A stretch of DNA of 47,055 nt, taken from the NCBI GenBank assembly GCA_014382805.1, contig JACNIZ010000220.1, positions 1 through 47,055 on the forward strand. The letters run 5' to 3'. The notes under the pieces are model-generated. The model was not told where the DNA came from. It searched no databases and saw nothing but the letters and a program-made list of their open reading frames with translations. The DNA is from Planctomycetota bacterium (GTDB lineage Bacteria > Planctomycetota > UBA1135). A program made the translations under genes and the position numbers. This document shows positions 1,104 through 18,769 of the stretch, one piece after another (position 1 is the first letter of the stretch; each line of letters starts with the position of its first letter).

Positions 1104-4100
1104 GTGTCACTCTTATTAATGGATCCAAATTCGTCAAACCATAAGCTAGAGCATACCCTCGAGCAATCGAGGTGGCTCAAAGCTTTGGCTGTACATTTGG
1201 TCGGTCCTGACAACGCCGAAGATTTACTGCAAGACGCCTGGGTGCGAGCACTGGAACGCCCCCCTCGACAGTCGAAAGTCCCGCCATCTTGGATGGCACG
1301 CGTGCTAACCAACCTCGGCTTGAATTCGAAACGAAAGGACCAGCGTCGGCGTCGGCGCGAAATCCTTGCGGCGCAGGAGCAGACGTCGGAAATGCTTGCC
1401 AGCGACGAGGCGGTTGAAGTTTTGCAAGTGCATGAGCAACTGGTGCATGCACTGCGCGATCTGCGTGAGCCTTATCGAACTGCAGTGATTTTGCGCTTCT
1501 ACGAAGGGCTGTCGAGCAAACAAATTGCCAAGCGTTTGCAGGTGCCCCCATCTACCGCCCGCAATCGATTGGCGAAAGGCTTGGCGGAATTGCGACGAAT
1601 CTTGGAATCCAGACACGGAGCAGATTGGCGCGATAGCACGCTAACTGCGCTTTTCTTAACCCCGGGCTCGCTAGTTCCGCCCTCTGTGGCGGCGATTGGA
1701 TTGGAGACTGTATTAATGACTATGAACAGCAAACTAATTGTCGGAGTTGGAGCGATTGCCTTAATCGTTGGTTTTTTCTTTTGGCCGGAAAATACTGGGA
1801 CTGAAACGGAAAATGCCGACGGAATTCAAGAGGCCGAACTTCTAAGCGAGATTCAAGCGGAAGTACAGCCGAGCGAGCTGGCCTTACTTGAAAAACAAGA
1901 GAGTGAAGTAGACATCCGCGCCGAGGCGGCTGCACCCAATTTTGGCGTGAAACTTCGAATCGTGGATGAAACTGGCACTGCAATTCCATCTGCCCGCATT
2001 CGCGTTTTTAAAACCAATAGAGGAGCGCGTTCTCTCTCAAGGAGGCCGATTGACATCTACTTCCCAAATATGGATCCCGATGTAATCGCAATCACCAATC
2101 AAGAGGGAATAGCGACTATAGGAGACCTTCCTCGTCGAACGGATCTAGCCTTCTTTGCCGACGCCAGCGGATTTGCAGGCCGAGTTCGTGTGGAAAATTT
2201 ATCAGCGGATCCCGCTGCAATTGACCTCGGAGATTGGATTCTCGAATCGGGGAGATTCTTAGCTCTTCAGTTCGTCGACAGCAAGGGTAATTCAATCCCA
2301 TCAGCGCGAGTCGAGTGCATAGGAAGAACCCCGCAACTGGAGTTCACCATGCTGAATTCGTTAGCATTTACCGATGAAAACGGCGTAGCTTTTTTTGAAA
2401 ACCTAAATAAGAGTGCCAACCTAATCCTAACTGACCCGGCGGGCTTTCTTAGTTACCAAGAAAGAGACTTCACCGTCTTTGACCAGCCAACGGCCTCACG
2501 GAGAATTGTACTTGAACGCGGTGGCTCCATTGAACTTACCGTGTATGAAGAAGATGGCTCCCCTGCCAAGGGCGTTGGAGTCTATAAAGAGGTCGGTGGT
2601 TTCCAAACGCCGTTAGTGCGCCTCCAGCCACACCTAACCTCTTTCCAAGGAGTCACTGCCGCAGATGGGAAGTTTTTGGTTAGCGGATTGGAAGAAGAGC
2701 GCGCCTCACATGGCATCGCAATCCGTCGCGGGCAAGCCTGGGCAGCTTCGGCCGGTATGAAGGCGGGAGAAAAGCTGAATTTGGTCGTACCTGGAGTTCA
2801 TGAAATAAACGGTCGAATTTTGCTCCGAAACAACACTCCGGCGGCCGGAGGAACGGTGATTTTAATAAACGAAAATGAACCCAGTTTGCCGCCAGATTTC
2901 GAATGCGAACTTGGTGACGATGGAAGTTTTTCGACCACACTTTCCACGGGGAGTTATCGCATTGCCAGCTTTCACAAATCCGGCACCTTGATGAAATCTA
3001 CCGGAGTATTACTTGAAGAAAATATTGACCTCGGTGACCTTCATTTGGCCGATCCGACCGCATTAGTGCTGCGCATTGAAAACGGAAGTGGCGAAGGATT
3101 ACCGGCCGCAAAGGTAAGTTTTCCGCTTCCACAATGGGCGACTACGCGACCGAATCCAGGGAATTCTAGCGACATCCAGGGAATGCTATTTTTTAGTTCA
3201 AATCCGTTGCTCAATAAAGCTGGCCTTGCATCAGGAGAGGTCGGGGTTTGGAATATCTCACATCTCCCGACTGGCTCATTCACCTTCCAAATAACTTGCC
3301 CCGGGTATCAAGCAAAGGATCTACAGGTCGAATTGGCTGCTGGGCAAACTGTACATGAGACTATTCAGCTCGAAGCTACAGCAGAGTTGATCCTCTCCGT
3401 CATGAATTCGGATGGGCGTCCGGCCTCTGGGGTTTCAGTTGCCGTTAGTCCAGCTGGGCATGATTCTCAATGGCAGGCGAATGGACTACAGAAGCCTAAG
3501 TACCTGCCCCAAAATTCGCAAACGGATAAGGATGGCAAAGCGCATTTCAAAAACATCGGCGTGGGTAGTTGGAACATAGGCCGATGGCTTCCTTCACGTT
3601 CAGGTTTCTTTTGGGGAACTACTTTGATAAATCCTGGCAGCAATCATTTCCAAATCCAAATGCCGGAATTGCATGGGGTGGAATTCAAAGTAGTTGGCCC
3701 GAATGGACCAGTGCCCGAAACTCCGGTTCGACTTCGGCGTAAACTGCCGAAAACCGACCCAATTTCCCCAATCACTGAATATGACCGCGGTGGATATCGT
3801 TCTACTACAGATCAGAATGGAATTTGTACCCATAAAGAGCTAGAAGCGGACGAATACCAAATACAAATTTTTCCACCTGGGTTGTTCCCGCTGCAAGAAG
3901 AAATTCAAATCAATGCATCCTCAACTAGTTTCACCTTTCGCTTTACAGGAACCTCAATCTCTGGAGCTATCGCCAATGCGCCGCAAGGTTCGCGGGTTTA
4001 CCTTGCCAACTTCTTGAATGAACCGGATGAGCAGGAGCAAGCTCTTCTTCTGGTTAGGAGTCAATACTGGGATTCCGATGCAGACGATATCATTGCTATT

Positions 4101-4574
4101 GGCAGCAACCTTCGTCATGGTATGACATCACCTGATTCGCAAGGGTTTTTTGAATTCAATGGAGTTCCCGATGGGATCTATTACCTAATTGCAAGAGCAC
4201 CTGGATACATTGCGGCCAATCCTCGGCGAATCCATGTCAAGGGCGAGGATCTATCAAATCAAAATTTCGTACTTGCACAAGCGGGAAGCGTCAGTGTGGA
4301 ACTGACTGGAATGACAGAGTTCCGTCGGCGTCATCCCGAGACACAACTCTATTTGGAGGTGTCCAGTTTGAGCGGCAAACGGGTGAGCTCGAACCCGCCG
4401 TTAATCACCCAAGACGGTAAGTATTCTTTCTCGCCGCTAGAATCGGGGGAAGCCATAGTTTCCATGCGCTATTGGAACAACGTCACTATGACCAAGGGCG
4501 AAACCATTCCAGTTGTGGTCATTCCCGGCCAAGCCAGCGTTGTGAGAGTAGACGCGAGAAATTTCTCGCCATAA
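1104..4574 (+). CDS. ECF sigma factor - single TM - carboxypeptidase regulatory-like repeat fusion protein (start GTG 1104 or ATG 1119)
   Basis: N-terminus has sigma region 2 (NAEDLLQDAWVRAL) and region 4 (LREPYRTAVILRFYEGLSSKQIAKRLQVPPSTARNRLAKGLAELR); TM KLIVGVGAIALIVGFFFW; then repeated modules of the form VKLRIVDETGTAIPSARIRV... / ...GIATIGDLP. Confidence 0.85.
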   Translation: MSLLLMDPNSSNHKLEHTLEQSRWLKALAVHLVGPDNAEDLLQDAWVRALERPPRQSKVPPSWMARVLTNLGLNSKRKDQRRRRREILAAQEQTSEMLASDEAVEVLQVHEQLVHALRDLREPYRTAVILRFYEGLSSKQIAKRLQVPPSTARNRLAKGLAELRRILESRHGADWRDSTLTALFLTPGSLVPPSVAAIGLETVLMTMNSKLIVGVGAIALIVGFFFWPENTGTETENADGIQEAELLSEIQAEVQPSELALLEKQESEVDIRAEAAAPNFGVKLRIVDETGTAIPSARIRVFKTNRGARSLSRRPIDIYFPNMDPDVIAITNQEGIATIGDLPRRTDLAFFADASGFAGRVRVENLSADPAAIDLGDWILESGRFLALQFVDSKGNSIPSARVECIGRTPQLEFTMLNSLAFTDENGVAFFENLNKSANLILTDPAGFLSYQERDFTVFDQPTASRRIVLERGGSIELTVYEEDGSPAKGVGVYKEVGGFQTPLVRLQPHLTSFQGVTAADGKFLVSGLEEERASHGIAIRRGQAWAASAGMKAGEKLNLVVPGVHEINGRILLRNNTPAAGGTVILINENEPSLPPDFECELGDDGSFSTTLSTGSYRIASFHKSGTLMKSTGVLLEENIDLGDLHLADPTALVLRIENGSGEGLPAAKVSFPLPQWATTRPNPGNSSDIQGMLFFSSNPLLNKAGLASGEVGVWNISHLPTGSFTFQITCPGYQAKDLQVELAAGQTVHETIQLEATAELILSVMNSDGRPASGVSVAVSPAGHDSQWQANGLQKPKYLPQNSQTDKDGKAHFKNIGVGSWNIGRWLPSRSGFFWGTTLINPGSNHFQIQMPELHGVEFKVVGPNGPVPETPVRLRRKLPKTDPISPITEYDRGGYRSTTDQNGICTHKELEADEYQIQIFPPGLFPLQEEIQINASSTSFTFRFTGTSISGAIANAPQGSRVYLANFLNEPDEQEQALLLVRSQYWDSDADDIIAIGSNLRHGMTSPDSQGFFEFNGVPDGIYYLIARAPGYIAANPRRIHVKGEDLSNQNFVLAQAGSVSVELTGMTEFRRRHPETQLYLEVSSLSGKRVSSNPPLITQDGKYSFSPLESGEAIVSMRYWNNVTMTKGETIPVVVIPGQASVVRVDARNFSP

Positions 4575-4631
4575 TTTTCGGCAAAAAGTTGCAACATTAT
4601 CTAGGCTGGCGGTGAGTTATTCAGGAAATCG

Positions 4632-7600
4632 ATGAAAACGCCTGACCCCAAGACCGCCAGCCTGGAAGAACTGCTCGCCCATTCCGGGTGGGTGCAAGCT
4701 CTTGCAAAATCGCTGCTGGCGGACGAGCATCAGGCGGAGGATGTATCGCAGCAGACCTTGATGGTGGCGCTGGAGCGTAAACCTTACGGCGGTGCTGGCC
4801 TGCAAGCTTGGTTGACTCGAGTTGCTCGCGGAATTGCACTTAATCTGCGACGCGGTGAGCGGCGGCGATTGGCGCGTGAGGAAAAGGTCGCTCAAACAGG
4901 CGCGACGGCTGCATCCAGCGATGAAATCGTCGCATGGGCGGAGTGCATGCATGAGTTGGCACTTGCAGTTTCATCACTGGACGAGCCGCATAGAAGCATC
5001 ATCGTGCAGCGCTACTTCGATGGCTTGCCTTTGCATGAAATCGCTTCGCGCCTGGGAATGCCCGCCAGCACGGTGCGCTCAAATTTGCGCCGCAGTTTGC
5101 AAAAGCTGAAGTTTGAATTGCAAGCTCGCTCCGGCAAAGAAAGCCACCTTGCAGGCTTAGCGATTTTGGCAGCACCCATATCTGGAACTACCGTACTCGC
5201 GAGTGCCGGCTCGATCTCATTTACCCCTTGGATCACACACCTTTTGCTCATGAGCACAAAAACCAAAATCGCATTCAGCGCAGCGCTGTTATTATTGATT
5301 TCTTGGGCGGTATGGCCGACGCCTCGACTTTCGCCGCCGACAATTCAGACTGTTGGAAATGCGGATCCAATAGCATCTACCTCAATCCTGAAAGAGAACG
5401 CAACCATACCTCAAGGCGAGGCGACTGACGAGAGCCTGAGGGTTGAGCTGCTCGAGGAATCGAATTCAATTGAGGCAGTGTTCCACGTTCAAGTCTTGGA
5501 TCTAAATGGACGCGCAATTCCTCAAGCCCATGTAGAAGCAAAGAACATACACCAGGATTGGATCAAGCTCATGGGCTTCAAGGGATGGGACGCTTGGTTT
5601 CACATTGCCCCCAGCAAAGAAAAAGCCCTGACTGATGAGTTCGGGCGTGCAACCCTAAATAATCTAAACAATTCAGATCCCGTCATTATTTACGCTTTCA
5701 AAAGTGGTTTTGCTATTGCAGGCAAGCTCCATGACAGCACGCCGGGCAAACCAGAGCAAGACTGCGGCATTCTTAGCCTGTCTCCAGGTGGACAGATAAA
5801 GCTTCGCGTATTGGACAATAAAAACAAGCCCGTGGAAGGTGCAGTCATCAGCCTTCAAACCGATCCCACGGAACCAGTAGGCACTCTTTATTTTCAAAGT
5901 GGACCAACCGACGACAAAGGAGAGAAATCTTTCCCTCACTTGCTGAATCGATTGCATCGCCTGGAGATCAACGCTCCTGGGTTCATTCCTTTCCAGCAGG
6001 ACGATTTCCAGCCCATTGCATCTAGCGATCAATGGAGGCAAATCACGCTTGAGCGTGGCAGTGCCATCAACGGAATAGTTTTCAACTCAAATCATTCCCC
6101 GGCAGCTGACGTCCCCATCTACTTACTTCGAAAAGAGGATTCCAGCTTTGACCGGCCACACCAATTTTATGGGCATTCGGCAGTAACCCAAACAGACGTT
6201 AATGGTGAATTTGAAATCTCTGGCCTCGATGATAAAGAGGCGGAATATAAAGCCCTAGCTAAAGTTAGCCCGACCATCTGGACAGCTTCAGATCCGGTCA
6301 GTCCAGGGGGTGTGGTGAAACTGTCCCTGCCAGACTACTATTCCATTCGCGGCAAGATTGTCATTGAAGACGGAAGCCCAGCCCAACGAGCATCTATCGG
6401 ATTTGTGAATGTGGATCACCCTGGCGATGTGAATGAAGTTTTTTATCCAACCTCTTCAAACGGATCCTTTCAATTAGCAATCGCCGCAGGCACATATGGC
6501 GCTATGGCTAGGAACCGAGAAGGCCGAAAACTACTTTCACCATTTGAAGTTTCCGCAGATGTTGATCTGGGCGAGATCACCATTTTTCCAGGAGTTCCCT
6601 TGACTATCACCACGTTATCTTCCATTGATAAAAAGCCAGTTCCGTTCCCAAGCCACATACTTGATGTTGAAGTTCCCTACTTTGGGAAGGGAATAGTCAT
6701 AGGGCCGAACGATTGGAAAAGGCAAATCAAGCACGCCGCTCGAGCAAGGCGCTTCAGCCGCGACCAATTCCTTGAGGACCATGTCGCAATTATCAAATAC
6801 CTTCCCCCGGGGAATCACGATTTATCCGCACACGCTACCGGATATCTCAGACAGCCATTTAAGGTGATCCTGGAGGAGGGTAAGCCAAAAGCGATCACGC
6901 TTTTCTTGGAACCGACATTAGAAGTAACTCTGATCATCAAGGACAAGAATGGGCTTCCAGTTCAAGACCAAGAGTTTCTAATGAACTCCTTCCGCCCGGA
7001 TGGCAAAGCCGACGAAGATCGAAACTCGGAAAGGTCCTCCACCAACGCAGCAGGAAAGGCCATCTTTAATCAGTTAAGCAAAGGATGGTATTACTTGTGC
7101 CAAGGAAGCGGTCCAACAGAAGTGCGAATGACTTCCCTTGAAATCGTCTCTGGAGAAAACATCATTGAGTATCAATACCCTACCCAGCCAAATTTAACGG
7201 TGCGACTTTCGGATGCTTCCGGTCCAATCACTGGCACGGAAATCCAAATACTGAAACAACTCGACGACAATTCCCCGTGGCCTAAGCGGGCGCAATTGGA
7301 TTCCAAAGGTGAAGCACATTTCTCCAATATTTGGCCTGGGAATTATCGAATAATGGCCGAAGTCCATGGCAGTCTGCGAGTATTCAAAGTAGTTGAGCTA
7401 AATAAAGAATCTGAAGTTGTCGAGCTACAACTAAGTGGGATCACCATAAAAGGAAAGATCCCTTCCGAAAACCTAACCCTGCTGGGAGGATTGCGGGTGA
7501 GCATCCATGGACATGGGTTGCCAATATCAAAAATAAAAGATGCCGACCTAGCTGTGCTTGGACAAACAAACTATAAATCGTCCCTACATGGAACGGCAAT

Positions 7601-8036
7601 GGTCGACGAAGACGGAAACTTTATCATCCAAAATGTACAACCAGGCCTCTACGAAATTTACATGGATGCCAAGGGCTACCGGAGCTCAGGGACAACCGAA
7701 ATAGAGGTTTATACCCAGGATCTCATCGCGCCAGATCTTTCACCATTAATTATGGAATCGGTGCTCATACTCCAGGTGATTGATTCCGCTGAATTCGTGG
7801 CGACCAATTCAGTACATCTATTCTATGGAAAACTGTTTAACGATGCTGGAGTGTTGGTAGCCAATACTAGCTTCAGCGATGACGGCGAGAAGAAATTCGA
7901 TCGTCTAAATCCAGGAAAATACGACCTAAAAATCTACTCCGTTATTCTGCGAGGGGGCAAGGAAACACTTGTCGATACTATTCCTGTTCAAGTCGGTGGA
8001 CCTAGCACAGTGACCACAACTCGATGGCCGTTGTAG
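4632..8036 (+). CDS. ECF sigma factor - single TM - carboxypeptidase regulatory-like repeat fusion protein (tandem paralog)
   Basis: Region 2 (HQAEDVSQQTLMVAL), region 4 (LDEPHRSIIVQRYFDGLPLHEIASRLGMPASTVRSNLRRSLQKLK), TM KIAFSAALLLLISWAVW, then VLDLNGRAIPQAHVEA-type repeats. Confidence 0.85.
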   Translation: MKTPDPKTASLEELLAHSGWVQALAKSLLADEHQAEDVSQQTLMVALERKPYGGAGLQAWLTRVARGIALNLRRGERRRLAREEKVAQTGATAASSDEIVAWAECMHELALAVSSLDEPHRSIIVQRYFDGLPLHEIASRLGMPASTVRSNLRRSLQKLKFELQARSGKESHLAGLAILAAPISGTTVLASAGSISFTPWITHLLLMSTKTKIAFSAALLLLISWAVWPTPRLSPPTIQTVGNADPIASTSILKENATIPQGEATDESLRVELLEESNSIEAVFHVQVLDLNGRAIPQAHVEAKNIHQDWIKLMGFKGWDAWFHIAPSKEKALTDEFGRATLNNLNNSDPVIIYAFKSGFAIAGKLHDSTPGKPEQDCGILSLSPGGQIKLRVLDNKNKPVEGAVISLQTDPTEPVGTLYFQSGPTDDKGEKSFPHLLNRLHRLEINAPGFIPFQQDDFQPIASSDQWRQITLERGSAINGIVFNSNHSPAADVPIYLLRKEDSSFDRPHQFYGHSAVTQTDVNGEFEISGLDDKEAEYKALAKVSPTIWTASDPVSPGGVVKLSLPDYYSIRGKIVIEDGSPAQRASIGFVNVDHPGDVNEVFYPTSSNGSFQLAIAAGTYGAMARNREGRKLLSPFEVSADVDLGEITIFPGVPLTITTLSSIDKKPVPFPSHILDVEVPYFGKGIVIGPNDWKRQIKHAARARRFSRDQFLEDHVAIIKYLPPGNHDLSAHATGYLRQPFKVILEEGKPKAITLFLEPTLEVTLIIKDKNGLPVQDQEFLMNSFRPDGKADEDRNSERSSTNAAGKAIFNQLSKGWYYLCQGSGPTEVRMTSLEIVSGENIIEYQYPTQPNLTVRLSDASGPITGTEIQILKQLDDNSPWPKRAQLDSKGEAHFSNIWPGNYRIMAEVHGSLRVFKVVELNKESEVVELQLSGITIKGKIPSENLTLLGGLRVSIHGHGLPISKIKDADLAVLGQTNYKSSLHGTAMVDEDGNFIIQNVQPGLYEIYMDAKGYRSSGTTEIEVYTQDLIAPDLSPLIMESVLILQVIDSAEFVATNSVHLFYGKLFNDAGVLVANTSFSDDGEKKFDRLNPGKYDLKIYSVILRGGKETLVDTIPVQVGGPSTVTTTRWPL

Positions 8037-8057: not shown

Positions 8058-8990
8058 TTAGGCGAACATGCCGGACATTCGTGCGCCCAAGTTCCCGAAA
8101 CCATGCACCAGTGCTGGCGCCAAAACGGAATTGGTTTTTTCTCTTAGAAAGCCGAAGTAGAGCGTGGTCATCGTAGAAAGTCCATGCCGCCACTGGAAAT
8201 GGTAAACGCCTGAAAAATAATCCACTGAATTCAAAACATGGACGGCGCCAAATAAGGCGGCGGCAAGGAATAGGCCGGGGCCAAAACGAGTCCCCCATAG
8301 AGACCAGCGTCGGTGAAAAACTAAATTTAGGCGGCCTTGCACGTAGCCGCGGAAAAACAATTCTTCACCGAAACCTGATCCGATTAGCACCCAAAAAACG
8401 GTCCATAATTTGGGTGCAATTTCTGCATGATTCAGCAACGCCCAACACGTCGGCGCGATCGCGATCAAGAGGAATAGGGTTAGCAGGGATTTATCAAGCC
8501 GTCGGCCGCGCGGTGATGGTGTATTTGAATTCAGCCTCAGTAGCCAAACCAAAACCATGGCGACACACAGGTTCAAAACGGAATTCACGATGACTCCGGA
8601 CCACGAAGTTTTGCTCGACTGTGGGCTAAATCCAAACCCCCACAAAACTACTCCACCTAAGCCGAGCAACACCAAACAAATAGCCGCCGGTCGAATGGAA
8701 AATAGAAAACCACGATTTGGCAATCCAAAAGCTCCAATCAAGCCAGACGTGCCCATCGCCGACCGGCTCCGCCCGGCAAAAATTATCATCAGCGCCGACG
8801 TCAAAATCATGAATACGCCCGGCGACAAATTCACCCCGCTTTGGACTTCCAACTGGCCCAACTCGGTAAACCGCCGAAACCACCTAAACCCGACGTGCAT
8901 GCAAACAAATGCAAGGCACACTTCAAGCAAAGCATAAAGTTTGGTTTTCAATGCGAGTTTGGAGCTGGAAAAGTCGCTAAAGCCATTCAC
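8058..8990 (-). CDS. CPBP family intramembrane glutamic endopeptidase (CAAX/Abi-like)
   Basis: Multi-TM protein with EELFFRGYVQGRL and FGAVHVLN motifs; GTG start directly follows the upstream gene's TAG. Confidence 0.85.
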   Translation of the reverse strand: MNGFSDFSSSKLALKTKLYALLEVCLAFVCMHVGFRWFRRFTELGQLEVQSGVNLSPGVFMILTSALMIIFAGRSRSAMGTSGLIGAFGLPNRGFLFSIRPAAICLVLLGLGGVVLWGFGFSPQSSKTSWSGVIVNSVLNLCVAMVLVWLLRLNSNTPSPRGRRLDKSLLTLFLLIAIAPTCWALLNHAEIAPKLWTVFWVLIGSGFGEELFFRGYVQGRLNLVFHRRWSLWGTRFGPGLFLAAALFGAVHVLNSVDYFSGVYHFQWRHGLSTMTTLYFGFLREKTNSVLAPALVHGFGNLGARMSGMFA

Positions 8991-9959
8991 CTACCAACCC
9001 ATCACCAAGGCGAAAAACAACGGCGCAACGATGGTCGCGTCAGATTCAATGATGTGCTTCGGTGTATTCACCCCCAGTTTGCCCCAAGTGATTTTTTCGT
9101 TGGGAACCGCACCTGAATAACTGCCAAAGCTGGTAGTTGAATCGCTAATTTGGCAAAAATATCCCCACAAAGGAACATGATCTCGCTGCAAATCCTGATG
9201 CAGCATCGGCACCACACAAATGGGGAAATCACCGGCTATGCCACCGCCAATCTGAAAAAATCCGACCGAACTCTGCGGTGCATAATTGCTATACCACTCC
9301 GCCAAATCCATCATCGCTTCAATGCCGCTTTTCACCGTCGACGGCTGGGCCAGTCCCTCCATGCAAGCCGCCGCAAACATATTCCCCGAAGTCGAATCTT
9401 CCCATCCGGGTGTCCAAATCGGCAGGTTTTTTTCCGCAGCAGCCAATAGCCACGAATCCTCTTCGGGGATTTGGTAGTACTGCTTCAATTTACCACTTAA
9501 CAGCATTCGATAGAGAAACTGGTGCGGGAACAAGCGCTCGCCGGCATCTTCCGCAGCCTTCCACTCCTCCCTTAAGGCACGTTCAATGCGTCGCATCGCC
9601 TCCTCTTCGGGGATGCAGGTGTCAGTCACTCGGTTCAAATGCTTGTCGAGCAATTCTTGCTCCTGCTGCGCAGTCAAATCACGATATCCGGGAATGCGCA
9701 AGTAATGGTCATGAGCAACCAAATGAAACACGTCTTCTTCCAGATTTGCTCCGGTAGTGCTGATAGCATGCACCTTGCCTGCCCGGATCATTTCGGCAAG
9801 AGAACGGCCCAATTCGGCGGTACTCATAGCGCCAGCCAGGGTCACCAGCATCGATCCGCCCGAATCCAAGTGCCGACGGTAATCCCGCGCCGCATCCATC
9901 AACGCTGCGGCATTGAAGTGGCGGAAATGCCGGGTCAAAAAGGCGGTAATTTCACTCAT
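8991..9959 (-). CDS. Deoxyhypusine synthase family protein (possible homospermidine synthase-like)
   Basis: GSMLVTLAGAMSTAELGRSLAEMIRAGKVHAISTTGANLEEDVFHLVA...; GGGIAGDFPICVVPML; PNEKITWGKL retains the DHS active-site lysine context. Confidence 0.88.
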   Translation of the reverse strand: MSEITAFLTRHFRHFNAAALMDAARDYRRHLDSGGSMLVTLAGAMSTAELGRSLAEMIRAGKVHAISTTGANLEEDVFHLVAHDHYLRIPGYRDLTAQQEQELLDKHLNRVTDTCIPEEEAMRRIERALREEWKAAEDAGERLFPHQFLYRMLLSGKLKQYYQIPEEDSWLLAAAEKNLPIWTPGWEDSTSGNMFAAACMEGLAQPSTVKSGIEAMMDLAEWYSNYAPQSSVGFFQIGGGIAGDFPICVVPMLHQDLQRDHVPLWGYFCQISDSTTSFGSYSGAVPNEKITWGKLGVNTPKHIIESDATIVAPLFFALVMGW

Positions 9960-10019
9960 GGCTAAATTCTAGGTCTTCCCACCGGTGGGCAAAAGAGCGA
10001 CAATGGCGCCTCAAGCTCG

Positions 10020-11999
10020 ATGGATACCCCCACCACCCTAACCACCCCGAATCAATCCACGCCGACCTCCGGCTGGACGATTCAAATGGCCGATGATTTG
10101 TACCGCGTCTCCGGCTGGAGCGAGGGTTATTTTTTCGTCGCCGAGGACGGCCGAGTGAAGGTGCGGCGCCATGCATCCGACCCCAATGGCGTCGCGCTGG
10201 ATGAAATTCGAGAAGGCTTGCGCCAGCGAGGCTTTTGCACGCCTCTAGTGGTACGCTTCAATGACATCCTGCGCGACCGCCTCGATCAAATTGCCGACGC
10301 CTTTAGTCGCGCCATGGAGGAGGAACAATACCGTGGGGATTATCGGCTCGCCTTCCCGATTAAAGTCAACCAGCAACGCCACGTCGTCGAAGAAATTTAT
10401 CGTCACGGCGAGCGCCATGGCTTTGGCTTGGAGGTTGGCTCAAAGCCGGAGCTCTTTGCCGCGCTGCCGTTGACCGCCGGCGACTTCGAGCGTCCTATCA
10501 TTTGCAATGGTTTCAAAGATGATCGCTACATAGAAGCGGTCATTCTTGGCACCAAACTTGGCCGCAACATTATTCCTGTAATCGAAGATTATTCTGAACT
10601 GGAACGAATCCTTCGTTTTGCCAAGAAGCACGATGTGCGACCACATATAGGTGCTCGTGTCAAACTTTCCACCCCTGGCGTCGGCAGATGGGAGGCCTCT
10701 TCGGGTTCACAGGGCAAATTTGGATTGTATATCAGTGAGCTTTTGGCCATGCACCAAGAGCTACGCGAGCATGGCATGGAAGATTGCCTAGAGCTGCTGC
10801 ACTGTCACGTCGGCAGCCAAATTCACGACATTCGTGTCGTCAAAAATATGATTAACGAGCTGGGCCAAATTTATGTTGAGCTCCAGCGCATGGGTGCCGG
10901 TTTGCGTTATTTGGACGTTGGTGGCGGCTTAGGTGTAGATTACGACGGCAGTCAGCGGGCAGTGGAATCTTCGGTGAATTATTCGCTTCAAGAGTATGCC
11001 AACGACCTGGTAGCGCGCGTCGGCAATTTGTGCAACCAAGCAGGCATCGAACATCCAACCCTAATTACCGAAAGTGGGCGCGCGATGTCCGCTCACCATA
11101 GTGTATTGATCACAGATGTGCTCGGTTCTAGCAGCAGTGAACGCATCAATTGCTTGGATATTTCCCTAGAAGAATGGCCAAATGAGGAAGATGCGCCACA
11201 GCCGATTCTTGATTTGCACCAAGCCTGGTCAACTTTGGATGCGGCGAACTATTCAGAAAATTATCATGACGCACAACAGGCGCGTGATGACTCGATCAAT
11301 CTGTTCGCCCTGGGCTACATTTCATTGCCCGCTCGTGCATTGGTGGAACGCATGTATTGGTCCACTTGTTCCAAGGTGCGCGGCTTTGCGCGCATTCTTG
11401 ACGAAGACCACGAAGACTTAGAATTCTTGGAAGATGCCCTACGTGCAACCTACTTCACGAACTTTTCTCTATTCCAATCTTTGCCCGATTCATGGGCGAT
11501 CGAGCAACTCTTTCCAGTGATGCCCCTGACCCGATTGACCGAGGAGCCGACGCGGCGTGCGGTTTTGGCCGATATCACCTGCGACTCCGATGGGAAAATT
11601 GAGAATTTCATCGGCGAATCCGAGAATCGCCAAACTCTGAACTTGCATGAACTGGTACCAGGTGAATCCTATTTTTTAGGAGTGTTTTTGGTCGGGGCTT
11701 ACCAAGAAACACTTGGCGATTTACATAATCTGTTTGGTGATACGCACGTCGTTCATATTAACTTGGAGGACGATGACGGTTGGTCGGTTGAAGAAACTGT
11801 AGAAGGAGATACGGTTCGCGAAGTTCTGTCCTACGTTCAATACGATGTGGAAGACATGGTGCGTGATTTTCGCAAGGACTGCGAAAAAGCGGTACGCGCT
11901 GGCCGTTTGAACATTACCGAAGCGCGCAACCTATTGCGCTTTTATGATCAGGGATTGGCGGGTTACACTTACCTTGAGTCAGATAATTTAGACGATTAA
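10020..11999 (+). CDS. speA: Biosynthetic arginine decarboxylase
   Basis: 659 aa; YRLAFPIKVNQQRHVVEEIYRHG, HCHVGSQIHDIR, LRYLDVGGGLGVDYDGS; typical SpeA. Confidence 0.95.
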   Translation: MDTPTTLTTPNQSTPTSGWTIQMADDLYRVSGWSEGYFFVAEDGRVKVRRHASDPNGVALDEIREGLRQRGFCTPLVVRFNDILRDRLDQIADAFSRAMEEEQYRGDYRLAFPIKVNQQRHVVEEIYRHGERHGFGLEVGSKPELFAALPLTAGDFERPIICNGFKDDRYIEAVILGTKLGRNIIPVIEDYSELERILRFAKKHDVRPHIGARVKLSTPGVGRWEASSGSQGKFGLYISELLAMHQELREHGMEDCLELLHCHVGSQIHDIRVVKNMINELGQIYVELQRMGAGLRYLDVGGGLGVDYDGSQRAVESSVNYSLQEYANDLVARVGNLCNQAGIEHPTLITESGRAMSAHHSVLITDVLGSSSSERINCLDISLEEWPNEEDAPQPILDLHQAWSTLDAANYSENYHDAQQARDDSINLFALGYISLPARALVERMYWSTCSKVRGFARILDEDHEDLEFLEDALRATYFTNFSLFQSLPDSWAIEQLFPVMPLTRLTEEPTRRAVLADITCDSDGKIENFIGESENRQTLNLHELVPGESYFLGVFLVGAYQETLGDLHNLFGDTHVVHINLEDDDGWSVEETVEGDTVREVLSYVQYDVEDMVRDFRKDCEKAVRAGRLNITEARNLLRFYDQGLAGYTYLESDNLDD

Positions 12000-12003
12000 G
12001 CAC

Positions 12004-12912
12004 GTGAACCATAAAATTTCCGACGGTTCCCGCACGCCGTATAGCGGTCGATTTTTGGATTTACCAGACCATCTTGCCGATCCCAAAACGGCACGCTTTG
12101 TCGTCATCCCGGTCCCCTATGACGGCACTTCCACCTGGCGCAAAGGCGCGGATCGAGGCCCCGAAGCTTTGTTGCAGGCATCTGCGGCGGTCGAATGGTA
12201 TGACATTGAAACCAAGCTGGAAGCGGCGCAAGTCGGAATCATGAGCGAAAATGCGCTTGCGGTAGATGGCTTAGATCCTCAATCCATGTGCGAGCTCGTG
12301 CAAGCTCGGACTAGCCATCATTTACAGAAAAATCGCATCCCAGTTATTTTGGGTGGTGAGCATTCCGTAAGCATCGGTGCGATTCGAGCGGCGGCTATAG
12401 CCAGTCCCGATCGTTTGGGTGTATTACAGTTCGACGCCCACGCCGACACTAGACCTGATTACCGCGGCTCGCCATACAACCACGCTTGTGTCATGGCCCG
12501 CGCTCGCGAAGTGGCGGATGTGGTGCAAGTCGGCATTCGATCCATAGAACAGCACGAGCTTAAAGGTTTAGATTTGCAGCGAGTATTCTGGGCCCATGAA
12601 ATCATGCAGGGTCAAGATCGTAAATGGATGGACCACGCAGTCGAGTTGCTGCCACAAAATGTTTACATTACGGTCGACTTGGATGGTTTTGATCCGTCGC
12701 TAATGCCGGCAACTGGCACTCCAGAACCTGGCGGTTTGGATTGGTACACGGTGAACGAATTAATCCGCCGAGTCCTTGCCAGCGGACGCCGCCTAGTAGC
12801 CTTCGACGTCAACGAATTGCTGCCCATCGATGGTCAGCATGCAAGTGATTTTCTTGCAGCAAAATTGGTGCATCGCATCATGTGCATGCAGGTTTCCGCA
12901 AGTGGCGGCTGA
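12004..12912 (+). CDS. speB: Agmatinase
   Basis: Ureohydrolase motifs GGEHSVSIGAIRA, LQFDAHADTRPDY, VYITVDLDGFDPSLMPATGTPEPGG. Confidence 0.93.
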   Translation: MNHKISDGSRTPYSGRFLDLPDHLADPKTARFVVIPVPYDGTSTWRKGADRGPEALLQASAAVEWYDIETKLEAAQVGIMSENALAVDGLDPQSMCELVQARTSHHLQKNRIPVILGGEHSVSIGAIRAAAIASPDRLGVLQFDAHADTRPDYRGSPYNHACVMARAREVADVVQVGIRSIEQHELKGLDLQRVFWAHEIMQGQDRKWMDHAVELLPQNVYITVDLDGFDPSLMPATGTPEPGGLDWYTVNELIRRVLASGRRLVAFDVNELLPIDGQHASDFLAAKLVHRIMCMQVSASGG

Positions 12913-13598: not shown

Positions 13599-14219
13599 AT
13601 GAAGTCCCCCGTCAGCAAATTGCTCCTTATCATTGTTATTCTAGTCTTGCTGCAAATATGGACCGGCTACAAGAGATCGAGAAATGAGGCGGCGGAGACA
13701 GCGTTTGCTGAATTGAACCAAATGCTTCGGGCAGGGCCAATTGGGGAACTCAGCCTAGCCAATAATCCTGAGTCCTCAGGCGACTTATCCGGTCCAGATG
13801 AAACAGCTCATATCCGAACCTTGCTTAATAGCAAAAGCCACTGGAATTATTTAGAAGATCTCGCCGCCGTACATGACCAGTTTGTATTTGATCCACGTCG
13901 GCGTAGCGTTTACTTTTTGCACCCGCGCGCAGCCAATCCTAAAGAATCGTGCCTAGGCCGGGTAACGATTACTGAAAATGGGAGTGGAAGTCATGCTGGC
14001 CACGCCGGAATGCCGCCCTATTTATTGTTGGAAACCCTGAAATGGGACCAAAATGCGTTACGAATTGAGGGCAGTATACTCAACAGCATTAACTGGCAGC
14101 CAAACTTAAATGGGACAGAGGTCGTTGCTGGCCAGCAGGTAGCGTTTCGGGTAGACGTCGATCGATTCGAGGACCGGACCATCGGCTTCGTGGAGCTCGG
14201 AGCGCCTTTAATCGAGTAG
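13599..14219 (+). CDS. Hypothetical membrane-anchored protein, 206 aa
   Basis: N-terminal TM (LLLIIVILVLLQIW), soluble remainder; stop overlaps the qNor 3' end by 12 nt (convergent). Confidence 0.55.
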   Translation: MKSPVSKLLLIIVILVLLQIWTGYKRSRNEAAETAFAELNQMLRAGPIGELSLANNPESSGDLSGPDETAHIRTLLNSKSHWNYLEDLAAVHDQFVFDPRRRSVYFLHPRAANPKESCLGRVTITENGSGSHAGHAGMPPYLLLETLKWDQNALRIEGSILNSINWQPNLNGTEVVAGQQVAFRVDVDRFEDRTIGFVELGAPLIE

Positions 14220-16586
14220 TTTGCCAGACGATTCGGAAGCGTCCGGGGTCATCGCTAATACCGTCGGCGGGGCGACGAATGGAACTGTTGCGGCTTGAGC
14301 ATTTTTTAATCGGAAGCCGCGTGTGACCATGAACCAAATTAGCGGAATGACACCGCCGCAGACGAACCATGCAACGCCGACTCCGCGTAACCAAGTAAGG
14401 GTTTGGAAAACGCTGCCGCTTTGATAATCCTGCGAACGGGCGTAAGCGTAGCCAACTTGCATCGAAGCGAGCAATTGATGCAGACCAACCGGGAAGAGGT
14501 CGAGTACTACCATCAGAACGAGTCCTAGGTTTAACGACCAAAAAACACGCCGCAGCAATTTTGCGTTCCAACTTTGCGGCCCGATGACCCAACGTCCGCA
14601 AAACAACATGGAAGCAATGGCTAAATTTCCATAAACGCCGAACAGCGCCGCATGACCATGATTGACGGTTAAGTAAGTGCCGTGTTGGAAATAATTGACT
14701 ATGGGCAAATTGATCATAAAACCCATCACCCCGGCGCCCATGAAGTTCCAGAAGTTGACGCCAATAAGGAATAAAAATGGCTCCGCCAAACCGAAGGTGG
14801 CCTGCTCCCCGCCACTTTTCCGCAACGCACTCACTGCGCCGCCGGGCATGTTGCGGAAACGCCAAGCTTCCACCGTCAGCAAAACCAACGGCACGATTTG
14901 CAGCGACGACAATACGCCGCCCAACGCAACTGTTTCAATGGATTTGGCGTTCCAATAAAAATTGTGGCTGATGCCGATCAAACCGGAGCCAAGGAACAAT
15001 ACCGCTGACAAATAAACCACGCGGGCGGCAACCATGTGGCTTACGAATCCCATCAAATACAAAAAATAGGCGGCAATGATAGTAGTGAACAGTTCAAAAA
15101 ATGCTTCCACCCACATATGGATAGTGCACCAGCGCCAGAAGTCGGCGATGACAAAATTCGTGTCGGGGTTGGCAACAAAACTGGCGGTGAACATAAAGAT
15201 AATGCCGACTATGGAATACACCATCCAGTTTGGTAAGGACCACGATTGCTTTTTCCGCAGCAGCGGCCAAACCCCGCGTGCGGTAATCCACAGCCAAACC
15301 ACAAACGCGGCATAAAGCAAATAATGGAAGACTCGACCGAACTGGGCGAATTCCCAACCTTGCAAACCAAACCAGCGCCAGTATTCTCCGAGCAAACCGT
15401 GCACACCCAAAGGAATGCCGAAAAAAGTGCCAGCGGCGACGACGACCAGCATCCAAAACAAAACGTTAATCCAAGCTAATTGGCGTTTGGGTTCAGGGCG
15501 GCAGATCAGGGGTAATACCCAAATGGTGGCGGCGATCCAACACACTGCGATCCAGAGTATTGAAATTTGGGAGTGCCAAGCGCGACTGATGGTCAGCGGC
15601 AGCACCTCTGAAATATCCAAACCCATTGCGCCGAAAATTCCGACGAAATCGCCGATGGTAATCAAGCCAGCTAGGACTTGCACACCGAACAGCACGGCGG
15701 CGACGGCGAAAAATTTATAACAAGCGCGCTGGGTTGGCGTGGGCTCGAATTTTTCGACCAGCTTAGTCGTCGCCAGCGGAGGCGTTTTCGTTTGCTGCGC
15801 TTCGAAAATGGCCTCACGATCCATCTTGCCGTAAAAGTAGAGCACGATCCCAAGCGAAAGCACTAAAGCAAGTGCGCCAATCACGCTCCAAAACACGACT
15901 CCCGACGTGGCGGTATTACCCGCTAATGGGTCATGCGGCCAGTTATGAGTGAAACTGTAGTCGTAGCCGGGACGTTGCGCAGCGCACAACCAACCACCCC
16001 AGAAAAAAAATGCACTGAGGTCGGATATTTCGTTTTCATCGGTGATGTAATTTTTTGTGGCGAATACTTCGTCGCCCGCAAGTTCGCCACCAGCACCAAA
16101 TTTCTGCGCATAATAATTACGCAACTGAGTGTAAGCCGCCGCTTGAGCATTGCTCAAGGTCACCGTGTTGGTGGCTTCGTTGTAGCGATTCTCCTTGAGC
16201 TCGGCTTGCACCAACGCCTGCACTATCATGCTGCGCTCGGAATCATCCGGCACTTTGTTACGCCAACCGGCGTCGTAAGTCTGATTCATCCACTGGGCAG
16301 TCAAATTGAGCGATTCAGCGGTGAAATCTGGGCCGCGCATGCCGCCGTCGCCGAGAAAACTGCCGTACTCCATCAAGCCATAGCGGAAGAACACTTGTTG
16401 GCCATCCGTGATGGACTTGGCTTCAAAAACCACTTCGCCAGACTCAGTTTTAAAGTCCGCAAGCGGCGGCGCATATTGATAAGTCTTAAAGCCGATGTAC
16501 CCCACCACCGCCACGCTGACCGCAACGATGATGACGAATACTTTCCACCAATGCTGGCGCCTATCGATCCATTTGATGATATTCAT
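14208..16586 (-). CDS. norZ: Quinol-dependent nitric oxide reductase (qNor, single-subunit NorB/NorZ)
   Basis: 792 aa; long N-terminal extension VFFRYGLMEYGSFLGDGGMRGPDFTAESL plus NorB-like core HMWVEAFFELFTT, VNHGHAALFGVYGNLA. Confidence 0.93.
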   Translation of the reverse strand: MNIIKWIDRRQHWWKVFVIIVAVSVAVVGYIGFKTYQYAPPLADFKTESGEVVFEAKSITDGQQVFFRYGLMEYGSFLGDGGMRGPDFTAESLNLTAQWMNQTYDAGWRNKVPDDSERSMIVQALVQAELKENRYNEATNTVTLSNAQAAAYTQLRNYYAQKFGAGGELAGDEVFATKNYITDENEISDLSAFFFWGGWLCAAQRPGYDYSFTHNWPHDPLAGNTATSGVVFWSVIGALALVLSLGIVLYFYGKMDREAIFEAQQTKTPPLATTKLVEKFEPTPTQRACYKFFAVAAVLFGVQVLAGLITIGDFVGIFGAMGLDISEVLPLTISRAWHSQISILWIAVCWIAATIWVLPLICRPEPKRQLAWINVLFWMLVVVAAGTFFGIPLGVHGLLGEYWRWFGLQGWEFAQFGRVFHYLLYAAFVVWLWITARGVWPLLRKKQSWSLPNWMVYSIVGIIFMFTASFVANPDTNFVIADFWRWCTIHMWVEAFFELFTTIIAAYFLYLMGFVSHMVAARVVYLSAVLFLGSGLIGISHNFYWNAKSIETVALGGVLSSLQIVPLVLLTVEAWRFRNMPGGAVSALRKSGGEQATFGLAEPFLFLIGVNFWNFMGAGVMGFMINLPIVNYFQHGTYLTVNHGHAALFGVYGNLAIASMLFCGRWVIGPQSWNAKLLRRVFWSLNLGLVLMVVLDLFPVGLHQLLASMQVGYAYARSQDYQSGSVFQTLTWLRGVGVAWFVCGGVIPLIWFMVTRGFRLKNAQAATVPFVAPPTVLAMTPDASESSGKLLD

Positions 16587-16720: not shown

Positions 16721-18769
16721 TTACAAACGACCTTGCGCGGCCAAAATCGGCCTCAGTCCCTCCATCAGCAAGTCAAGTTCTTGGTCGCGTAAGGCTTGCT
16801 CCTTATCACACAAAGCTTCCTCCGGGCGCGGGTGACATTCGACGATGATGCCGTCGGCGCCGGCTGCTACTGCGGCTAGGGCTAAAGGAACCACTAAATG
16901 GCGTTGACCGGCTGCATGCGACGGGTCGACAATGATGGGTAAATCCGTCATAGTTTTGAGCACCGGAACTGCACTGATATCCAGGGTATTGCGGGTTGCT
17001 GTTTCGAAGGTGCGGATGCCGCGTTCACACAAAATCACGCGTTGATTTCCACCAGCTTTGATGTATTCCGCCGCCTGCAAAAGCTCCTTTAACGTCGCAC
17101 TCATGCCCCGCTTCAGCAGCACCGGCCGACGTATTTTGCCGAGCTGCTTCAGCAATGAAAAGTTCTGCATATTGCGTGCGCCTACCTGCAGCATATCCGC
17201 TTTTGCGGCGATGGCTTCGACGTCTTCTGGTTGCAGCACCTCGGTTACCACGGGCATTTCGAACTCACGACCTGCTTCGACCAGCAGATCCAAACCTTCA
17301 AAACCTAACCCTTGGAAAGAGTGCGGCGAACTGCGCGGCTTGAATGCACCGCCGCGCATAATTTGGGCACCACGAGCTTTGACCATCGCCGCAGTATCGC
17401 GAATTTGTTTGCGGCTCTCCACCGCGCACGGCCCCAAAATCAAGGTGAAATTGCCGCCACCTACCGCCACCCCACCGACCGAAATACTCGGCCGTGGCTT
17501 GGCTTTGACATGGCGCGCTATTGTCACCTTCGCTGGCGTTTCCACCTTTGCCTTCCACAAAGTCGATGGAATTTTGCTTGGCTCCAAACGGTGCTCGACA
17601 GCACGCGACGGATAAGTACCTAAGACCTGTACATGGTTGCACGAACTGCGTAATGCGGCCAGCGCCTCTTGCACGTTTTCATCCTCCTGGTGACCAGCTA
17701 GGTCGGCCAGGAACATGTACTCCCACGGCGTCTCCGGCTGCGGACGACTTTCTAGGCGAACTAAGTTTACGCCGTGATCAGAAAACGCCGCCAAACTATT
17801 GCTCAATGCACCACAACGGTCTTCAACCGCAAAGTGAATGGTAGTTTTAGACGGCATCTTTCGGCTTGCATTCTCCGGTTTGGTCGCCAGTAACAAGAAC
17901 CGTGTTTGGTTGTGAGCATGATCGGCTACATCGCGTCGCAACACGTTGAGGCCGAATCGTTCGGCCGCCTCACTGGAGCAAATGCAGCCGATCTTTGGAT
18001 CTTTTGCATCACGCACTGACTGAGCAGCGCCTGCAGTATCAAAGTAGTGCGCAGCCTTGGCCTGCCGAATGTCACCGAGCAAGCGCTGGCACTGCTGCAA
18101 GGCAACCGCATGACTGCGAATAATCCGCAAGTCGGCAACTTCCGCCCCGGGTAACGCGGCCAAACAATGTTCGACTTCCCATACCTCTTCGTCCACCACC
18201 GCAATGTCGCGCGTGGCCAGCAGGTGATTGACCTCGCTGATGCTGCCAATCAAAGTATTTTCCACCGGCAAAAGCCCATAATCAATTTCGCCGCGTTCCA
18301 GCGCTGTGAACACATCGGCAAAACTGGATAAGCCGACGTGTTCCGCAATCGAATGAGTGCGGTGGGCGAACAATTTTTCAATCGCGAGGTCGCTGTAACT
18401 GGTTGCCACGCCTTGATAGCCGACGCGGCAAGTGGTGGTCTTTGGTTTTTCGGATAGCAGCGGTTCTTGGCTACGACGCGAGTAATTCAGCACCTCGCGC
18501 AGGATGCGGCCAGTGAAATAGCTCGACAAGCCCAAATTCTGTGATTCTTCCGCCCATTCGTTGGCCACTTCAGCCTCTCGATCGGGATCAAACAGTTGGG
18601 CCTCGTCCTGGTTGGATTTGTGCTGGGCAATGTCATGCACAGCATCCATGCGTTGCCGTAGCAGACGGATGAGTTCCTTGTCGACCAAATCAATGCGCTG
18701 GCGCGGACTGTCGGCGTCGGGATTATTCTGCTGACCTGGATTGTCAGGGTTGGGTAGGAGCGGTTCCAT
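16721..18769 (-). CDS. pheA: Trifunctional chorismate mutase - prephenate dehydratase (with ACT) - DAHP synthase (type I-beta) fusion
   Basis: [53 protein letters not shown]...[62 protein letters not shown]...[16 protein letters not shown]...[12 protein letters not shown]. Confidence 0.92.

Follow-up and report, generated by a model that had tools for sequence, protein, structure and literature searches.

Organization of the two genes

The window analyzed here (the whole stretch of DNA, 47,055 nucleotides from a Planctomycetota bacterium) contains two adjacent genes on the forward strand, ORF1 (1119..4574, 1151 aa) and ORF2 (4632..8036, 1134 aa), both of which are open throughout and encode an ECF sigma factor, a linker, a transmembrane (TM) helix and a long beta-sandwich array in a single chain, as judged from ORF translation and Pfam and, for ORF1, hydropathy. 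A preliminary description had started ORF1 at GTG 1104, but alignment with relatives makes the ATG at 1119 more probable, and the residues of ORF1 are numbered from it below. In ORF1, sigma70 region 2 lies at 1167..1349 (PF04542, residues 22-82) and region 4 at 1434..1592 (PF08281, residues 111-163), followed at 1614..1715 by a linker that, in the alignment of relatives, consists of the family motif GxDWRxxCLxLxxP and then an Ala/Val/Pro-rich stretch. The TM helix (SKLIVGVGAIALIVGFFFW) occupies 1728..1784 and the array, of the CarboxypepD_reg or transthyretin-like type, 1935..4571. The same order is found in ORF2, with region 2 at 4677..4868 (PF04542, residues 16-79; AF2 pLDDT mostly >90), region 4 at 4953..5111 (PF04545/PF08281), the linker with its conserved motif at 5133-5249, the TM helix at 5256..5309 (AF2 helix 209-226) and an all-beta array at 5472..8033, identified by Pfam and by AF2 strands from residue 281 onward.

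The pair is preceded by a glyoxalase-like ORF (596-982) and followed by a convergent gene for an Rce1/CPBP-type intramembrane protease homologue (8058-8990, minus strand). Several other features were observed further downstream, including a polyamine cluster at 8991-12912 (a deoxyhypusine-synthase-like protein, arginine decarboxylase and arginase-family genes), a NorB-like nitric oxide reductase with a fused cytochrome-c-like N-terminal domain (14211-16586, minus strand), and a single protein combining chorismate mutase, prephenate dehydratase, ACT and DAHP synthase domains (16724-18769, minus strand).

The sigma domain

Both proteins have intact regions 2 and 4, in agreement with the preliminary description: Pfam Sigma70_r2 and Sigma70_r4/r4_2 matched above the gathering cut-off at 5e-08 and 6.6e-13 in ORF1 and at 3.7e-07 and 2e-12 in ORF2. 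The N-termini fall in the NCBIfam sigma70-ECF superfamily (TIGR02937 above cut-off), and their sigma content is limited to these two regions, which is of the ECF type. The N-terminal AF2 model of the sigma part (pLDDT 84) matched SigE, SigL, AlgU, sigma-E and SigW in Foldseek; these are domain-level matches to solved ECF sigma factors, the overall TM-score being low due to differing relative placement of the domains. A profile search with the sigma part also retrieved SigW (1.5e-28), as well as SigE and SigL from RNA polymerase (RNAP) complexes. Thus, the N-terminal domain is an ECF sigma factor by sequence and fold, and is predicted to bind core RNAP. The fold and the family-wide conserved sigma residues are retained in 64 diverse members, and the GxDWRxxCLxLxxP motif after region 4 is present in both ORFs and also in a member that has the sigma part only.

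No anti-sigma gene adjoins the pair among the neighbouring ORFs, as the preliminary description had noted, and Pfam detected none built into either protein; specifically, zf-HC2, the zinc-finger anti-sigma family, had no match in either window protein. Neither anti-sigma nor WD40, SnoaL or TPR families were among the 25 commonest families of 44 full-length members, and neither an autoinhibitory domain nor confident docking was predicted in the AF2 models. One might suppose an ordinary ECF system whose anti-sigma factor is encoded at an unlinked site, the membrane part being secondary, and three zf-HC2 proteins are indeed encoded in the genome; however, all three adjoin other sigma genes (contigs C399, C83 and C401), which, together with the lack of any anti-sigma domain in the fusions, makes this the most improbable of the explanations considered here.

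Membrane helix, topology and array

A strong hydrophobic helix is located about 30-45 residues beyond the sigma part of the window ORFs (in ORF1 at residues 204-222, KD 2.05), so the single helix of the preliminary description holds for both proteins, by hydropathy in ORF1 and by AF2 in ORF2. Among 128 relatives, the 6 residues N-terminal of the helix include K or R in 81% of members and D or E in 2%, the C-terminal flank is net acidic, and no further TM segment occurs within the array. Because basic residues precede the helix, an acidic flank follows it and no other helix is present, this positive-inside signature predicts that the array is extracytoplasmic and the sigma part cytoplasmic. The preliminary description had proposed the same orientation with a surface array, of which the extracytoplasmic placement is retained as a prediction, the location being the periplasm or beyond. 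A two-helix topology, with the hydrophobic Pro-rich stretch just after sigma region 4 as a second TM segment, was considered and is not favoured by the charges or by AF2, both of which back one helix; that stretch is modelled with low confidence and was left out of the TM count. The consensus order in aligned members is sigma2, sigma4, a GxDWRxxCLxLxxP-like motif, the Ala/Val/Pro-rich stretch, [M][ST]xKxK, TM, FWP, an acidic linker and the array.

The arrays comprise about 850 residues per ORF, and their CarboxypepD_reg-like repeats, already noticed in the preliminary description, were matched by Pfam over several stretches each (6.4e-31 in ORF1 and 1.4e-35 in ORF2); a CarboxypepD_reg match was also found in 39 of the 44 full-length members. 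The AF2 model of the array is all-beta and resembles Cna-B-like pilins and TIE stalk proteins. In addition, about 20 free-standing, sigma-less, TM-anchored arrays were found in the same genome (loci L243-L262, on contigs C350, C214, C205, C301 and others), with N-termini of the form M-N-R/K-TM-WP; they outnumber the fusions there.

Family size and distribution

The two genes had been regarded as diverged paralogs with specialised inputs. Their adjacency and paralogy stand, whereas a view confined to the pair is too small: the genome itself (an assembly of 402 contigs, 84.6% complete) carries 12 intact fusions, 750-1160 aa in length; two of them form another tandem pair on contig C377, and tandem arrangement is frequent in the family. 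A thirteenth copy, L045 (G000:C18, 1524-4812), has its frame broken inside sigma region 4 and is either a pseudogene or the product of a sequencing error. Up to dozens of fusions occur in genomes of the same family and order, and a sample of the phylum gave a match at E<=1e-28 in 119 of 294 genomes. A genome scan with a single window protein as query gave no match. The named matches were mainly Planctomycetota MAGs plus the complete genome of Planctomycetes bacterium Poly30, a cultured organism (CP036434; loci L263-L292), in whose single chromosome 69 matches were detected (threshold about E<=1e-30); the frame spans 577-1263 aa in 68 of these. The Poly30 sigma-array fusions form an unusually large paralogous sigma family for one complete chromosome. 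Given at least 12 members in the window's genome, about 70 in Poly30 and the spread through the phylum, an isolated gene pair is ruled out as a reading. With the 12 intact copies in one genome and 205 fusions in total in the loci examined, chance origin of the sigma-TM-array architecture cannot hold.

The family sigma factors are set apart from canonical ECF sigma factors, those scoring above about 130 bits being nearly all fused and those below about 110 bits mostly lacking an extension. Early termination affects just 3 of about 208 family sigma ORFs, and no split sigma/array gene pairs were detected as intermediates. The single truly sigma-only member, L043 (7660-8220, minus strand), is a 186-aa sigma factor that ends just past the GxxW..CL motif, lies beside a GGDEF-like gene and has no neighbouring array. 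Two further members are unusual: L048 encodes a 248-aa sigma factor plus TM helix with almost no array, and L107 is a 717-aa fusion in a MAG labelled Deltaproteobacteria (GL140), which may reflect transfer, misbinning or mislabelling. A search upstream of the fusions for a shared ECF promoter motif, as expected for autoregulation, yielded nothing above expectation.

A candidate internal translation start

In 122 of the 205 members, an ATG is found a few codons 5' of the membrane helix, and Met residues are concentrated 4 and 6 residues before the helix among the 128 relatives. In the discovery set, GGA was the Gly codon at position -4 in 24 of 29 members (compared with a 19% background among Gly codons), and a Shine-Dalgarno (SD) match of at least 5 nt occurred in 18.7% of members vs 4.0% of synonymous-codon shuffles, in which the protein sequence is unchanged. 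The fixed test was then repeated on 75 unseen fusions from newly fetched loci, 46 of which had the Met. In these held-out genes, SD matches of at least 4 nt reached 89% vs 27% in shuffles (z=11.8), those of at least 5 nt gave z=10.2, and Gly codon -4 was GGA in 35 of 39 (P=1.4e-21); family-wide, the SD excess over synonymous shuffles amounts to z=12-15. GGAG-type tetramers peak at -12 from the ATG (57/122), and the mRNA around the pre-TM start is less structured than its synonymous versions (z=9.9, n=122), the negative controls (other Mets and members without a start codon) being flat or opposite. SD sequences are reported to be normally depleted inside genes (PMC5100845), so this enrichment runs against expectation.

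Together, these features suggest that many family genes also yield a sigma-less, membrane-anchored array from the internal pre-TM start, which would resemble the free-standing array proteins since their N-termini are like the pre-TM start of the fusions. The preliminary description had assumed one chain per gene and named separate translation of the sigma and repeat parts as grounds for refutation, which the family data partly bear out: the frame is indeed kept continuous, yet strong evidence in the nucleotide sequence points to an extra in-frame start shortly before the TM helix. As only 3 of about 208 sigma frames stop early while the start signature is present alongside, both products appear to be kept. 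We therefore consider it probable, from codon-level statistics, that one frame specifies two proteins across this widespread family, a tethered ECF sigma receptor and a sigma-less copy of the receptor from a selected internal start.

Alternatively, the genes might yield nothing but the full-length protein, with the pre-TM Met and GGAG left over from an ancient fusion or serving to pause translation during membrane insertion. Translational pausing has been associated with SD-like sequences within genes, GGAG is present in the window at ORF1 only, and 50 of the 205 members have no start codon at all at the pre-TM site. However, the SD enrichment is tied to the start codon rather than to the helix (z=11.9 with ATG, z=5.6 with GTG/TTG and 0/50 in members without any start codon), is placed at initiation spacing (-12) and is not seen at other internal Mets, and the open mRNA structure follows the start codon in the same way. 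The 0/50 result in particular disfavours a pausing element. Under the relic view, synonymous sites would have decayed among proteins whose median sigma identity is about 39%. Inheritance of the codons by descent is also not favoured, as the SD signal persists when redundant sequences are removed at 45-60% identity, and a conserved HTH Gly codon used as a control is GGC in 16 cases and GGA in 1. Coarse single-linkage thinning left SD in 14 of 40 cluster representatives, a figure that reflects lineages with weak SD. A full-length-only product is thus judged unlikely. Among more distant C-terminally extended ECF sigma factors (G103, G201 and G173), no clear pre-TM ATG motif was detected in the few long-frame loci.

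The signature differs among lineages. Outside the window's order, SD matches of at least 4 nt precede 52 of 63 internal starts and 11 of 75 sigma starts, compared with 6 of 26 internal starts in the window's taxonomic family and 1 of 10 candidates in its genome. SD is hardly used in the window's lineage even by ordinary genes (27% vs 18% background) and was found at 3 of 19 free-standing arrays; the open-structure signal is kept in the window's family (z=4.1, n=20). In Poly30, both SD (z=2.2) and fold (z=2.5) stand out only weakly (n=16), and the pre-TM position is devoid of a start codon in 15 of 31 members. In the window, the candidate start of ORF1 is the ATG at 1716..1718, with an SD-like GGAG at 1703..1706 (9 nt 5' of it, recognised from the sequence and family statistics) and low local structure (matched in openness by 4% of synonymous variants); its predicted product has 952 aa and the N-terminus MTMNSKLIVG. 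The candidate of ORF2 (ATG at 5250..5252, N-terminus MSTKTKIAFS, predicted product 928 aa) has no SD, and its local fold is ordinary (30% of synonymous variants are as open). A second start that gives a sigma-less anchored array beside the full-length tethered sigma factor is hence well supported at the family level, and the evidence in the window is modest: the start is plausible for ORF1, and ORF2 offers the ATG only.

The prevalence of SD at the array start over the sigma start outside the window's order (52/63 and 11/75), as well as the excess of free-standing arrays over fusions in the window's genome, might be taken to mean that the array is the real product, with a sigma part that is vestigial or serves as a scaffold near the anchor. 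The sigma fold and its conserved residues in the 64 diverse members, and a continuous frame in about 205 of 208, argue against this, and it appears very unlikely.

Proposed mode of action

The best overall explanation of the established anatomy, topology signature, intact sigma fold, family expansion and lack of a neighbouring or built-in anti-sigma factor is a tethered one-chain ECF sigma factor with a second, sigma-less product and activation by release, to which we assign a probability of roughly 0.6. The sigma factor would lie in the cytoplasm, tethered by one TM helix to an extracytoplasmic stack of transthyretin-like beta-sandwiches, and the tether would hold it off RNA polymerase in a latent form. 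An event at the array (ligand, tension or envelope damage) may cause the protein to be cut, an RseP-type protease acting by regulated intramembrane proteolysis being the likeliest agent, and the freed sigma factor could then act. The sigma-less form might determine how much array there is per sigma, or associate with the full-length protein. Release by proteolysis is the leading guess as to activation, by analogy, because known one-chain ECF sigma factors are activated by proteolysis (IutY by Prc and RseP, ECF52 as a proposal) and the genome encodes an RseP-type M50 protease, and we hold it tentatively, at slightly under even odds. The protease itself is weak evidence, since M50 proteases are, to our knowledge, near-universal. 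Neither a ligand nor a cleavage site came to light, and no target promoter or motif indicating autoregulation was found.

The sigma factor may also be active while tethered, in the manner of the membrane-bound one-component regulators ToxR and CadC, a change in the array such as oligomerisation freeing its surface in place without cleavage. No recognisable cleavage site and no dedicated protease tied to the genes were found, the AF2 models show no autoinhibitory domain and no confident docking, and the free-standing arrays and the predicted short form could be partners, all of which is in line with activation in place. On the other hand, a tether would hinder two things that a sigma factor needs to do, namely binding core RNAP and initiating at target loci, and IutY, an experimentally studied one-chain ECF sigma factor, works by Prc/RseP cleavage (PMC8999054). 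Activation in place is the main rival to release, though a rather unlikely one.

Planctomycetota are rich in ECF sigma factors, and the family described here bears on their control without anti-sigma factors. It is large, with about 70 genes in a single cultured genome, and joins sensor, anchor and sigma in each chain. If the proposal is true, the stoichiometry of receptor to sigma would be fixed within each gene, many times over in a genome, and the second protein should become scarcer or vanish on a silent GGA-to-GGC change or once a single ATG is lost. Where such a gene is annotated as one 'sigma-70 family' protein, a second envelope protein may go unnoticed.

Comparison with known systems

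Among described systems, ECF52 SCO4117 of Streptomyces (Actinobacteria) combines an ECF sigma factor, a TM helix and an extracytoplasmic sensor-like domain in one chain, and release by proteolysis has been proposed (PMC5826349, PMC8999054). The window family similarly has a TM helix followed by an extracytoplasmic region, whose sensing is only predicted. As far as those accounts go, ECF52 has a zinc-finger (ZAS) anti-sigma domain between sigma and TM that the window family does not have, contains a Pro-rich stretch and a carbohydrate-binding module in place of a long TTR-like array, and is described with no mention of an internal start. In IutY (ECF243, Pseudomonas putida), a sigma factor is fused to a membrane-anchored C-terminal part and is activated by Prc and RseP cleavage (PMC8999054); that part is a FecR-type anti-sigma factor of iron cell-surface signalling, which the window family lacks. 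Planctomycete WD40 ECF sigma factors (the ECF57 group; Tuwongella) are also reported to be expanded and to carry large C-terminal repeats, some ECF sigma factors appearing in Triton/SDS fractions (PMC8567305, PMC8999054). For ECF57, regulation via protein interaction is proposed there, whereas no WD40 match was found in the window family. ECF41 and ECF42 have a SnoaL_2 or TPR C-terminal extension, neither of which was found in the window family.

Pro-sigma-K has an N-terminal pro-sequence and no extracytoplasmic sensor array, and is not an ECF sigma factor. What it has in common with the proposal for the window family is activation of a sigma factor by intramembrane proteolysis, as known for Bacillus subtilis (PMC6242693). 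For Cas11b, a single frame was shown experimentally to encode both the full-length protein and a version shortened at the N-terminus (PMC11899642), whereas the second product of the window family is predicted from codon-level signals and its short form would be a membrane-anchored array.

The window family thus appears to have the layout of ECF52 and IutY without their defining anti-sigma domains; it is set apart by domain tests, and a group in the 2021 classification may already exist for it. No description of sigma-CarboxypepD_reg fusions or of an internal start in ECF genes was found in the limited literature searched. The architecture alone has precedents in ECF52 SCO4117 and IutY, and the novel element, if confirmed, would be the internal start.
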